Assembly: GCF_944390845.1 (NCBI RefSeq)
Contig: NZ_CALXRM010000019.1
Location: 1 to 50,213 of the forward strand
Direction: 5' to 3'
Length of the DNA stretch: 50,213 bases
Origin: an uncultured Brachyspira sp.
GTDB taxonomy: Bacteria > Spirochaetota > Brachyspiria > Brachyspirales > Brachyspiraceae
Below, in pieces: positions 1-6,176 of the stretch. Both the position numbers and the translations under genes were made by a program. The notes beneath the pieces were generated by a model. The model was not told the origin of the DNA, searched no databases, and saw only the letters and a list, made by a program, of their open reading frames with translations. Position 1 is the first letter of the stretch. Each line of letters begins with the position of its first letter.

Positions 1-98
1 AAATCTTAAAATCATTTCAAAAAATCTTAAAATCATTTCAAAAAATCTTAAAATCATTTCAAAAAATCTTAAAATCATTTCAAAAAATCTTAAAATCA
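1..98. repeat. 21-bp tandem repeat array
   Basis: About 4.7 near-identical copies of a 21-bp unit (aaatcttaaaatcatttcaaa) run from the first base to about 98, where the last copy diverges into unrelated sequence. The period is exactly 21 bp, seen from the atctt core at 3, 24, 45, 66 and 87. The array may extend left of the window. There are no unique spacers, so it is not CRISPR. The unit is a multiple of three, but I see no start signal or open frame that makes it coding. It may be a length-variable locus of the VNTR kind. Confidence 0.93.
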
Positions 99-1563: not shown

Positions 1564-4227
1564 ATGGCAACAAAAAAAACTACTACAAACAAAAAAGACG
1601 AAGTAAAAGAAACTACAAAAAAGACTACAACTAAGAAAACTGCAGCTAAAAAAGATGATGCTGAAGTAAAAGAAACTGTTAAAAAAACTACAACTAAAAA
1701 AACTGCAGCTAAAAAAGATGATGCTGAAGTAAAAGAAACTGCAAAAAAAACTACAACTAAAAAAACTGCAGCTAAAAAAGATGATGCTGAAGTAAAAGAA
1801 ACTGTTAAAAAAACTACAGTTAGAAAAACTGCAGCTAAAAAAGACGATACAGAAGCAAAAGAAACTGTTAAAAAAACTACAGTTAGAAAAACTGCAGCTA
1901 AAAAAGATGATACAGCAAGTGATAATAATAACATAATCAGCAGTGCAGTTAAAGAAAAAGAAAACACAATTAAAGAAATTGAAAATAAACCTAAAGAAGA
2001 AAAGAAAGCCATAGATTTTTTACAAGATAAAAAAGATGTAAAAGAAGTTAAGGAAAATAAACCTGAAATAAAACCTTTAGAAAGTTTATCTATAACAAAA
2101 AGAGAAGAAGAAAAAAAAGAGGAGAAGAAAGATTTAAAAGAGCTTATCAAAGAAGCTACAGCAGAAAGAAAAGGTGCTGACAGAAAAATCGTATTAAAAA
2201 CTTCTACTCCTGTTAGAAAATTAGATTCTATAAAAACTGAAAATACAGAAAGTAAAACAGAAAGAGAGTCAATCACTCTATTAAAAGAGGCTATAAAAGC
2301 TAAATCAAAAAATGTGTCAAGACCTGTTACTGTAAAAAAACGTCTTGCAGTAGTAGATGATGAGACTATAGAAAGCACAGATACTACAAATGCTACAAAA
2401 GAATCAAGCGTATCAAGTCCTATAGTAGCAAGTGTATTAGCTGCTCATTCATTGAAAGATAAAGAAAATGACGAAAAAATTGAAGCAGAAAAACATGATA
2501 TACATGATTCATTAGATAAAAAAGATGATGCAGCTGAAAATATTGAAAACAAAGAAACTATTTCAGAAGTATCCGAAGAAACAACTTCTGAAGCAGAAGA
2601 ATTAAAAGAAGCAGAAAAAACAGAAACTGAAGAAGAAAAAGTTGAAGAAAAAACAGAATCTGCTGTAACTCATAGCAGTACTTATAGCTCTTCTATATTT
2701 TCATTTGAAAGATTCCGCAGAAGAGAGGAAGAAGCAAAAGAAAAAGCTGAAGAAAAGCAAGAAGAGGAAAAAGAAACTACAGAAGACAAAGAAGAAATCG
2801 AAGAAAAACAAGAAGAAATTTCAGTACAAGAAACTGAGAAGGAAGAAACAACAGAAGATGTTTCTTCTGTTGAAGAAGCTGAAGAAAAACAAGAAGAAAC
2901 AGAATCTGAAGCTAAAGAGGAAATAAAAGTAACTGAAAAAGCAACTTACAGCAAAAGCGATATTTTCAAAAGACAAGTTGTTATACCTTTAAACGACGAA
3001 GATGTTCAAAGATCTAAATATGAACAGCAGGAAATTGACAGTGCTATAGAGAAAGCTCATACTATAAATGAAAATGATTCAATAGAAAGTTATGCTGAAA
3101 ATACTCAGGAAGAAACAGAAAATGAAAAATTACAAGAATTAAAAGATAAAGATATAAAAATTATAGAAACTGAAGAAGAATTAAAAACTTCAGCTCTTCC
3201 TGAAATAGAGAAAAAACCAGCTGAACCTTATGTAGTTCCTAGCCACTCTATCGAGGAAAATAAAAAATCAAATAAAATTGTTGCTATAGTTGGTATCATC
3301 ATAATAATACTTGGATTATCTTTCTTGGGAGTACAATTCTTCTCTGGAAGAAATAACACTATAGAAGATGACGGTTTCTATGATATCGTTACTAATGAAA
3401 CAGTTAATAATAATACTAATAATTTAATAGATATACAAAACACTAATGCTGTTAGACCGCAAACTAATAATGTTAATACAAATACTGCTAAACCGCAAAC
3501 TAATGTTAGACCTAACACTAACAATGCTGTAGTTAATACTAATGCTATTAAACCGCAAACTAATAACACTAGACCTAATACTAATACAGCAAATACTAAT
3601 GCTATTAGACCACAAACTAATAACACTAGACCTAACACTAATGCGGTAAACACTAATACAGTTAGACCTAACACTAATAACGCAGCAGTAAATACTAATA
3701 CAGCTAGACCGCAAACTAATAATACTGCGACAAGACCTAGCACTAATAACACAGCAACTAGACCTCAGACAAATAATGCTCCTACTCCTCCAAAAGAGCC
3801 TGAGATAAATCCGCCAACACCACCTACTCCTCCGCCTAATCCGCCTGCAGCAAATACTAATGCATCAGCGGCTGGCAGCACAATACAAAATAATAATAGC
3901 AGTACCTTAACTTATAATACAGGTACTTATAAAACTCAATGGAAAGATACTCTTTCCTCTATAGCCGTCACGGAACTGGGGGACTCAAGGAGATGGCCGA
4001 CTATATTCGTACTCAATGAACAATTAATAAAAAATCCTGATAGTATAGTTTTTAATGTTGATATAAAATTGCCTAATGGAGGAAAAAAAAAAGTTGAGAA
4101 TATGAGTGACGCTGAAAAAAAGGCATTGTATAATGATTATATAAAGGTATCAGACATATATTCAAGAATGGGTAAACAAGACCTAGCAAATACAATCAAA
4201 TCTCAAGCAAATTCAATTATAAAATAA
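1564..4227 (+). CDS. Single-pass membrane protein: Lys/Ala-rich repeats, acidic coil, TM, Asn/Thr linker, LysM-like domain
   Basis: This is an 887-residue protein with no signal peptide. Residues 8-118 hold about five copies of a 21-residue Lys/Thr/Ala repeat (core KKTTTKKTAAKKDD), resembling histone-H1 or AlgP-type tails. Residues about 120-565 are very charged, E/K-rich and probably coiled coil. A single hydrophobic segment follows at about 572-592. Residues about 610-780 form an Asn/Thr/Pro linker built of RPQTNNTRPNTN-like repeats ending in poly-Pro. Residues about 786-842 look like a LysM domain (YKTQWKDTLSSIA through VDIKLPNG), followed by a helical tail. By charge the N-terminus should be cytoplasmic and the LysM domain periplasmic, binding peptidoglycan. 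The start ATG has only a weak A-rich ribosome site, consistent with coupling to the gene 6 nt upstream. A role linking nucleoid to wall is inference. Confidence 0.85.
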   Translation: MATKKTTTNKKDEVKETTKKTTTKKTAAKKDDAEVKETVKKTTTKKTAAKKDDAEVKETAKKTTTKKTAAKKDDAEVKETVKKTTVRKTAAKKDDTEAKETVKKTTVRKTAAKKDDTASDNNNIISSAVKEKENTIKEIENKPKEEKKAIDFLQDKKDVKEVKENKPEIKPLESLSITKREEEKKEEKKDLKELIKEATAERKGADRKIVLKTSTPVRKLDSIKTENTESKTERESITLLKEAIKAKSKNVSRPVTVKKRLAVVDDETIESTDTTNATKESSVSSPIVASVLAAHSLKDKENDEKIEAEKHDIHDSLDKKDDAAENIENKETISEVSEETTSEAEELKEAEKTETEEEKVEEKTESAVTHSSTYSSSIFSFERFRRREEEAKEKAEEKQEEEKETTEDKEEIEEKQEEISVQETEKEETTEDVSSVEEAEEKQEETESEAKEEIKVTEKATYSKSDIFKRQVVIPLNDEDVQRSKYEQQEIDSAIEKAHTINENDSIESYAENTQEETENEKLQELKDKDIKIIETEEELKTSALPEIEKKPAEPYVVPSHSIEENKKSNKIVAIVGIIIIILGLSFLGVQFFSGRNNTIEDDGFYDIVTNETVNNNTNNLIDIQNTNAVRPQTNNVNTNTAKPQTNVRPNTNNAVVNTNAIKPQTNNTRPNTNTANTNAIRPQTNNTRPNTNAVNTNTVRPNTNNAAVNTNTARPQTNNTATRPSTNNTATRPQTNNAPTPPKEPEINPPTPPTPPPNPPAANTNASAAGSTIQNNNSSTLTYNTGTYKTQWKDTLSSIAVTELGDSRRWPTIFVLNEQLIKNPDSIVFNVDIKLPNGGKKKVENMSDAEKKALYNDYIKVSDIYSRMGKQDLANTIKSQANSIIK

Positions 4228-4269: not shown

Positions 4270-4644
4270 ATGAAAAGATTCGCTAAAAATAAAAATGCTA
4301 TTTTAGAATTTTCCTGCACCGGTTGCGGTATATGCTGTAAAGAACCTGGTTATGTGTTTTTTACTGATGATGATATAAAAAAAGCATCTAATTTTTTAAA
4401 TATATCCCCTATAGTATTTATTAACAAATATTTAGAATACGATGAAGGGTATGGATATTATATTCAAGTTACCGGAGAAAAAGGCTGTACTTTCCTAGAT
4501 GAAAGTAATAAATGTATAATACATGAGGCTAAACCAGAACAATGCAGAACTTTTCCGTATTGGAATGAATATATGGATAAAAATGGAAACTTAATTGCTG
4601 GTAAATTTAATAGACCCTGCCATGGTGTATCTATAAAAAAATAG
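4270..4644 (+). CDS. YkgJ family cysteine-cluster protein
   Basis: A 124-residue protein of the YkgJ family (putative zinc/iron-chelating domain). The signature is visible as Cys16, Cys19, Cys22 and Cys23 in CTGCGICC, then Cys74, Cys83 and Cys93 (EQCRTFPYW) and Cys118. The full set of family cysteines is present and the length is typical. Members are thought to bind a metal ion or iron-sulphur centre; the cellular role is unknown. It starts 42 nt after the LysM protein with no strong Shine-Dalgarno, so it may be translated from the upstream transcript. Confidence 0.88.
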   Translation: MKRFAKNKNAILEFSCTGCGICCKEPGYVFFTDDDIKKASNFLNISPIVFINKYLEYDEGYGYYIQVTGEKGCTFLDESNKCIIHEAKPEQCRTFPYWNEYMDKNGNLIAGKFNRPCHGVSIKK

Positions 4645-4721: not shown

Positions 4722-6176
4722 ATGAGTAATGATTTAATAAGTAAATATGATATTTTAACGGTAAAAGATCTAAAAAGTATTAAAGATCAATTAATTTCAC
4801 ATAATATACCTCTATTTAGAGTTGATAAAGAAAAAAATCTTATAGCATTTCCAACTGAACAATTAAGTCTTATTATAGACAATGAAAAATATAATAACCT
4901 AAAACTATATATTCCTAAAAATTTTGCAGTATTTATTGATGAGTTCAAATCAATAACTCAAACTGATTCATCTACATCAAGTACTCAAGCTGCTGCTCCT
5001 TATGTTTTCAGAACTCCTAAAGAATCTGAAAAAGAAATGGGTAAAAGAATTTCTGAAATTTCTAAAATGACTTACAGAGAAAAAGTAAGCACAATAGAAA
5101 CATACAATAAAGAGCTTAAACAAATTGTAGTTGATGAAGAACAAGGTATCAATAAAAATACTGCTCAGCAAATTGTTAATGTTGGTAATGATGTAGGTCT
5201 TATCGCTAAAGTAACAATGTTTGAGAGTATACAAAAAATTAAAGGCGAAGAAATTACTCAAGAACAGGCTAAAATAGAAAACCAAGAAATAACAGAAACT
5301 ACTACTAACCTAGTTACAACTATAGTTGATATGCTTTCAAAAAATACTGAAACTCAAAAAGTATTTGATGAACTTAGAAACTATTCTGACGGCGGTATAA
5401 TGTCTCACTCTAACAGGGTATTTATTTCTTATGTCAATTTTATAGCATTTTATAATAACCTCATAAACAGAAGACATTTAGTACATAAAATAAGAACTTC
5501 ATATACTAATAAATATAAAAAATTCTATGAACAAGTTGAAGCAGTATTCAGCAAAGATAATATATGCAAAAATCTAGCTACTGTTGAAGACTGTATTGAT
5601 AAAGGTATTAAAATCATAGAAGACAGAGAAATGAATCTTTATTCTGTTGGTGCTTTACTTCATGATATAGGTAAAGTTAAAGATTTGGATTATTTTGAAG
5701 GTGCTAACGGAAGAGATTATGAAAGAATAAAAAAACACTTATTTAACAGCTATGCTTTAGTAAGTCAAACTTCAGAATATCCTCTTGAAGTTATATTGAC
5801 TGTAGCTTTACACCATGAATATTATGGTTTAGGTTATGGTCCTTATGATCATTTATATAAATTAAAATTGGCAAAACACCCTAGTTTCCAAATACAAAGA
5901 ATAATGACTTATGATGCTAAGACTATAGATGAATGCGAGGCTTTTGCTTATTTCCCTGCTAAAATGCTTGAAATAATAGACGTTTACGATGCTTTAATTG
6001 ACCCAGCACGTAAATACAGAGGCGGAAAAACATTTACTCCGGAAGAAGCTCTTAACATTATGAGAGAAGATTTTATAGAAAAGCATGTTAAATTAGACCC
6101 TATTCTATACGATGTATTTGTAGAGTTCTTAAGTAATTCTATAGAACAGGATTTAATGGCTTGTAAATTAATATAA
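4722..6176 (+). CDS. HD-GYP-like phosphodiesterase domain protein
   Basis: This is a 484-residue protein. The C-terminal half is an HD domain: His314-Asp315 in LLHDIGKVKDL, a downstream His in KKHLFNSYAL, His364-His365-Glu366 (HHEYYGLGYG) and the later DVYDALIDPARKYR segment typical of HD-GYP proteins. The signature GYP is GYG here and the spacing is atypical, so c-di-GMP hydrolysis is plausible but not assured. Residues 1-300 contain no receiver, PAS or GAF domain that I recognise; they are helical and charged. The start ATG follows AGGAAAA at 4708-4714. The protein has no signal peptide and is probably cytoplasmic. The HD call is firm; the substrate is inference. Confidence 0.82.
   Translation: MSNDLISKYDILTVKDLKSIKDQLISHNIPLFRVDKEKNLIAFPTEQLSLIIDNEKYNNLKLYIPKNFAVFIDEFKSITQTDSSTSSTQAAAPYVFRTPKESEKEMGKRISEISKMTYREKVSTIETYNKELKQIVVDEEQGINKNTAQQIVNVGNDVGLIAKVTMFESIQKIKGEEITQEQAKIENQEITETTTNLVTTIVDMLSKNTETQKVFDELRNYSDGGIMSHSNRVFISYVNFIAFYNNLINRRHLVHKIRTSYTNKYKKFYEQVEAVFSKDNICKNLATVEDCIDKGIKIIEDREMNLYSVGALLHDIGKVKDLDYFEGANGRDYERIKKHLFNSYALVSQTSEYPLEVILTVALHHEYYGLGYGPYDHLYKLKLAKHPSFQIQRIMTYDAKTIDECEAFAYFPAKMLEIIDVYDALIDPARKYRGGKTFTPEEALNIMREDFIEKHVKLDPILYDVFVEFLSNSIEQDLMACKLI

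Follow-up and report, generated by a model that had tools for sequence, protein, structure and literature searches.

How bacteria keep the chromosome in position relative to the envelope is an open question, and a single protein that reaches from the DNA as far as the wall would answer it in a simple, mechanical way. Burroughs et al., in Cell Cycle in 2017, reportedly described Bacteroidetes membrane proteins with HU-CCDC81 and SPOR, for which a role in chromosome partition was predicted. The polar landmarks HubP, FimV and TspA of Proteobacteria have a periplasmic LysM domain, one transmembrane (TM) helix and a long, acidic, low-complexity cytoplasmic part. The LysM domain of FimV binds peptidoglycan (PMC12918733). 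HubP of V. cholerae anchors the origin region through ParA, thus a LysM-anchored protein can hold this region via ParA (PMC9140986). On the DNA side, mycobacterial HupB does not bind DNA stably without its KAAK/PAKK tails (PMC5676037).

Here, we analysed a stretch of 50,213 nucleotides (the window, G000:C19:1-50213), part of a 3.43-Mb Brachyspira genome in 133 contigs. An ATG-start ORF at 1564-4227, on the forward strand like the other window genes given below, encodes an 887-aa protein with a basic tail, a TM helix, a linker and a LysM domain. A sequence-only reading of the window had proposed that this protein tethers the nucleoid to the cell wall, and that no described system has this form. 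The second statement was too strong, because HubP and FimV are likewise LysM-anchored, acidic and membrane-spanning (PMC9140986, PMC12918733). HubP and FimV would be functionally close to the proposed role of the 887-aa protein. However, in HubP and FimV the periplasmic LysM is N-terminal and a TPR/FimV domain forms the C-terminus, whereas here LysM is C-terminal and no TPR or FimV domain was found with Pfam and NCBIfam, so the protein was not counted among them. It also differs from them by its basic tail and its winged-helix partner gene.

The Lys/Ala-rich, H1-like tail is shared with HupB and chlamydial Hc2, but both of these are soluble components of the nucleoid that have neither membrane nor wall domains, and their basicity is far higher. 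The Bacteroidetes proteins reportedly also carry a DNA-binding-type element and a peptidoglycan-binding-type domain on one membrane protein; they are said to have SPOR instead of LysM and HU instead of a lysine-rich tail, and they come from a different phylum. Our literature search found no paper on an HU-LysM fusion, or on such a protein in Brachyspira. Nor did we find one on chromosome-envelope positioning in this genus, whose cells are long, thin and wave-shaped.

Layout and charge of the 887-aa protein

The N-terminal tail (residues 1-118, positions 1564-1917) is a Lys/Thr/Ala repeat with a net charge of +18, as revealed by charge counts, tandem repeat analysis and the orthologues. Its DNA is a 63-bp (21-residue) tandem repeat at 1600-1911, with 5.0 copies and a 93% match. 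The window has 31 non-overlapping ORFs with a length of 150 aa or above, and of all 118-residue stretches in them the tail was the most basic (+18 versus +12 for the next best). Shuffling of the cytoplasmic part gave an N-terminal charge this high in 5 of 20,000 cases, and the N-terminal placing of the positive charge is not chance.

The tail had been described as a histone-H1-like Lys/Ala repeat. The array itself is real, but its charge is modest (+0.15 per residue) and, because of interspersed D/E (17-18%), the tail falls well below genuine H1 or Hc2 in basicity. HC2 and related histone-like families were tried and rejected, with 18.3 bits against a cut-off of 40 for HC2 and 25.3 against 135 for NF038052; the protein did not reach the cut-off of a curated Hc2/histone H1-like family model. 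By analogy with lysine-rich tails, the N-terminus may bind DNA.

Residues 119-262 have mixed charge and include the basic, conserved motif 1 (ERESITLLKEAIKAKSKNVSRP...KK; residues 218-262, positions 2215-2349; alignments A1 and A6). Next comes a variable acidic stretch (residues 263-458, positions 2350-2937) with a net charge of -45, which could neutralise the tail. Between it and the membrane, alignment showed the conserved motifs 2 and 3 (TYSKSDIFK and DKDIKIIETEDELKTSSLPEIEKKPAEPY; residues 459-562, positions 2938-3249). They are followed by a single TM helix (residues ~572-592, positions 3277-3339), a linker rich in Asn/Thr/Pro by composition, as had been read (residues 593-788, positions 3340-3927), the LysM domain (residues 789-837, positions 3928-4074) and a C-terminal helical pair (residues 838-887, positions 4075-4224). 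The three short cytoplasmic motifs, the helical pair and the D/E content of the tail had not been noticed before. Pfam searches gave no HU (PF00216) match in the protein, and no catalytic domain was found. A weak NCBIfam match of ZipA type (residues 571-723, E 0.012) is probably due to composition.

The N-terminus was basic in 20 of 20 aligned orthologues, and most had the acidic middle. The N-terminal sequence varied widely, and the repeat array was only partly kept. In three other genomes of the family (G042, G043 and G044), the tails were shorter yet basic (+9 to +17), and those of G042 and G043 were short and lacked the array. The best-conserved cytoplasmic parts were not the repeats but the short motifs (residues ~218-262, 459-472 and 485-562), with ERESITLLKEAIKAKSKN, TYSKSDIFK and DIKIIETEDELKTSSLPEIEKKPAEPY strongly conserved across the genus. 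Judging from this conservation, the motifs are probably partner-binding sites. No phage relative of the protein was found, and a scan of genome contigs gave no confirmed relative of its C-terminus.

Membrane topology and the LysM end

All 20 aligned orthologues had one strongly hydrophobic segment only (mean hydropathy 2.3-3.0), in agreement with the single membrane segment proposed earlier. In most of them the flank before the helix was basic and that directly after it acidic, a bias towards N-in/C-out and not the reverse. Therefore, the tail should be cytoplasmic and the LysM domain periplasmic.

The Pfam LysM model (PF01476) had no match in the 887-aa protein at E <= 1. NCBIfam PRK11198 matched residues 784-837 (E 4e-4), below its cut-off. 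A profile of 13 sequences from the genus matched LysM chains in solved structures of Kbp and phage proteins, with a best E-value of 7.6e-5, and the closest solved LysM was that of Kbp, a potassium binder. In the AlphaFold2 (AF2) prediction, the C-terminal end formed a strand-helix-helix-strand unit and then two helices; the best of five models had a pLDDT of 85.6, and the remaining four averaged 57-61. By Foldseek, the first part superposed on LysM structures with a probability of ~1 and an rmsd of 1.2-1.7 over ~54 residues for the best matches, with every E-value at or above 0.06. Together, these predictions support a LysM fold at residues 789-837, as the sequence-only reading had it. By analogy with other LysM domains, this end may bind peptidoglycan.

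The winged-helix gene and its neighbourhood

An ORF with a TTG start (817-1557) stops 6 nt upstream of the 887-aa gene and encodes a 246-aa protein. No Pfam or NCBIfam model scored above its cut-off for this protein, and a PDB sequence search with its profile gave no match. Its AF2 model (pLDDT 78.8) matched the Rep/DnaD-type initiator 4pt7, CodY (2b0l) and AspA/pNOB8 centromere-binding structures by Foldseek, with probabilities of 0.97-1.00, but with poor E-values, above 0.02. On this predicted structure, the protein has a winged-helix fold, and here too the earlier description stood.

Among 296 sampled genomes of the phylum, the winged-helix family was confined to the window's order. The order winged-helix, tail-TM-LysM, CxxCxxCC was kept across the genus, and the three genes were also adjacent in G042, G043 and G044, where the winged-helix proteins had 51%, 57% and 44% identity to that of the window. 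The gene pair that the earlier reading proposed to look for thus recurs beyond the genus. The CxxCxxCC gene (4270-4644; PF03692, 46 bits, cut-off 23) encodes a putative zinc/iron-chelating protein. An HD-domain gene (4722-6176; PF01966, 31.4 bits) came next in most, not all, loci of the genus.

Two genomes of the order lie outside the family. In both, the winged-helix homologue preceded a lytic transglycosylase gene and no tail-TM-LysM gene adjoined it. In G025, it came directly after rsmH, murE and murF. At L067:8816-13851, a winged-helix homologue is flanked on one side by murE/murF, which rsmH precedes, and on the other by a lytic transglycosylase gene.

HU-TM-LysM proteins in spirochaetes

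The same architecture had been proposed for a search in other spirochaetes, and it was found with HU at the position of the tail. One chain in G026 (L069) combines an HU domain of 32.0 bits (cut-off 22.4) with a TM helix and a LysM domain that scores 34.1 bits (cut-off 20.9). With L069 as query, a second protein was detected in nearly every genome of the genus. This paralogue (L108, L118, L174, L176 and L177) has one or more HU-like domains, in tandem in several cases, as well as an acidic stretch, a TM helix, a degenerate LysM-like domain and C-terminal helices. The paralogue in the window's genome (570 aa; G000:C69:3405-5117, equal to L177:1906-3618, minus strand) had a borderline HU score of 19.3-22.8 bits against the cut-off of 22.4. 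HU-like paralogues were also present in G042 and G044, and the fragment L175 suggests one in G043.

Outside the order, proteins with HU, a TM helix and a LysM region were found in three other families: L184 (G072), L186 (G201) and L192/L234 (G040), all from metagenome-assembled genomes (MAGs). A search of genome contigs with an HU-TM-LysM profile matched three named MAGs. The HU scores were 73.2 (L184), 71.5 (L186) and 84.4 bits (L234), and over all these chains, including L069, they ranged between 28 and 84 bits (cut-off 22.4). Pfam LysM scored 26.6 bits in L184 and 23.6 bits in L186 (cut-off 20.9), and the LysM of L234 was recognised by alignment only. In all three families, a stand-alone HU gene (77-92 bits) lies directly upstream and extends into the beginning of the HU-TM-LysM gene (L184:354-2235, L234:2920-4312 and L235:2950-4343).

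The 887-aa protein resembles these proteins (L069, L184, L186 and L192/L234, and the HU-like L108, L118, L176 and L177) in its cytoplasmic N-terminus with a DNA-binding-type element, its single TM helix, its LysM domain and its C-terminal helices. However, where they have a folded HU domain, it has a lysine-rich tail without a PF00216 match. The canonical genes lie behind a stand-alone HU gene, whereas the 887-aa gene lies behind a winged-helix gene.

Stand-alone HU genes were not found in any of the 29 genomes of the window's family by a PF00216 search, which could miss a diverged HU. In these genomes, PF00216 matched only inside the HU-like TM-LysM paralogues, five genomes had no match, and the sole match in the window's genome was its paralogue on C69. 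G025, by comparison, contains two stand-alone HU genes, and among the controls PF00216 was found in 10 of 14 named genomes. The apparent absence of free HU from this family is surprising by itself.

TM-LysM genes beside parAB

In G376, a profile of the TM-LysM part of the HU-TM-LysM proteins matched a TM-LysM protein at an E-value of 4e-22, encoded at L266:2771-5383. Immediately in front of its gene are parB (113-122 bits) and a ParA-type gene, and a gyrA-like end is close by; parA and gyrA in G376 were assigned by reading the sequence. Across G376's order, a different one from that of the window (loci L270-L295), parB lay at most 1.5 kb from the TM-LysM gene in 19 of 30 loci, from four families. 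The ParAB-linked protein has only a short cytoplasmic end, and its family aligned with the HU-TM-LysM C-termini at an E-value of 5.6e-43.

The window protein has its layout in common with the HU-TM-LysM and the ParAB-linked proteins. Its C-terminal module matched the former at E 3e-10 and the latter at E 2e-12 (hhalign, 90-99 columns), with the C-terminal helical pair collinear in both. A generic LysM repeat used as control gave no match (6%). Small LysM lipoproteins of Treponema gave a match to the module similar to that of the HU proteins (E 5e-11 versus 3e-10), and the helices alone reached 37-40% probability, so common descent with the HU-TM-LysM proteins is unproven.

Proposed mechanism and alternatives

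We regard the 887-aa protein as a probable nucleoid-wall tether and give an even chance to a direct bridge between DNA and wall. It would be an inner-membrane protein of type II (N-in, C-out) that links peptidoglycan to the nucleoid or to a complex bound to the nucleoid. In the periplasm, the LysM-plus-helix end would grip the wall via the flexible Asn/Thr/Pro linker, and in the cytoplasm the basic tail would hold DNA loosely. The co-encoded winged-helix protein possibly adds a firmer or sequence-specific DNA contact, and likely binding sites for partner proteins are the motifs that lie between the tail and the membrane. The case for bridging is stronger because the layout recurs with a genuine HU at the tail's position and with TM-LysM beside parAB. 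It is also favoured by the basic N-terminus and single TM helix of all 20 orthologues, the conserved gene order, the modelled LysM fold, the lack of a free HU match in the family, and the published roles of the HupB tails and the FimV LysM. Counting against it are the modest, D/E-rich charge of the tail, the short, array-free tails of G042 and G043, the acidic stretch as a possible neutraliser, the equally good match of the Treponema lipoproteins, and the potassium binder Kbp as nearest solved LysM. The protein would then be one of several spirochaete solutions, next to HU fused to TM-LysM, an adjoining HU gene and parAB beside TM-LysM.

The main rival, ranked below the tether and rather doubtful, is a scaffold like HubP/FimV. 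Such a LysM-anchored protein would use its cytoplasmic motifs to recruit clients (ParA-type, chemotaxis, flagellar or division proteins) and contact the chromosome only through these clients, and the tail would contact something else, e.g., RNA, phospholipid or the acidic stretch of the protein itself. The motifs, not the repeats, being the most conserved cytoplasmic parts fits this reading, as does the likeness of an acidic low-complexity part with a periplasmic LysM to HubP and FimV (PMC12918733). The short cytoplasmic end of the TM-LysM protein beside parAB also implies a protein partner. Against it, the polarity is reversed, TPR/FimV is missing from the matches, and the relatives that carry HU point to a direct contact with DNA. 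Much less probable is a membrane protein that positions wall synthesis in growth or division, with the winged-helix protein as regulator of the gene unit and no chromosome tethering. The rsmH, murE, murF and lytic transglycosylase neighbours outside the family would suit it, and so would the weak ZipA-type match; the protein has no catalytic domain, and a wall factor gives no obvious reason for the HU and ParB linkage in relatives. Equally improbable is an origin of the tail in the compositional drift of an AT-rich genome, as a repeat expansion without DNA-binding role on an otherwise ordinary LysM membrane protein. This would agree with the 63-bp array, its near absence in G042 and G043 and the D/E in the tail, but the N-terminus stayed basic in every orthologue despite wide sequence variation, and the tail was more basic than any other stretch in the window's ORFs and rarely equalled by shuffles.

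The tether reading may be extended, tentatively, to the phylum. Direct chromosome-peptidoglycan tethers might share a TM-LysM-helix frame whose chromosome end can be exchanged between HU, an HU partner, ParAB and a winged helix combined with an H1-like tail, and membrane-anchored proteins would replace the missing free HU in the window's family. If so, nucleoid organisation in this family would be partly wall-anchored. The HU-bearing layout and the parAB neighbours turn the tether idea into specific tests.

Other observations

In four loci (L094 in G024, L088 in G007, L079 and L080), the winged-helix and/or LysM genes contained stops or frameshifts, possibly assembly errors in A-rich repeats. 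At the contig edge, window positions 1-97 consist of a short tandem repeat (aaatcttaaaatcatttcaaa, ~21 bp).
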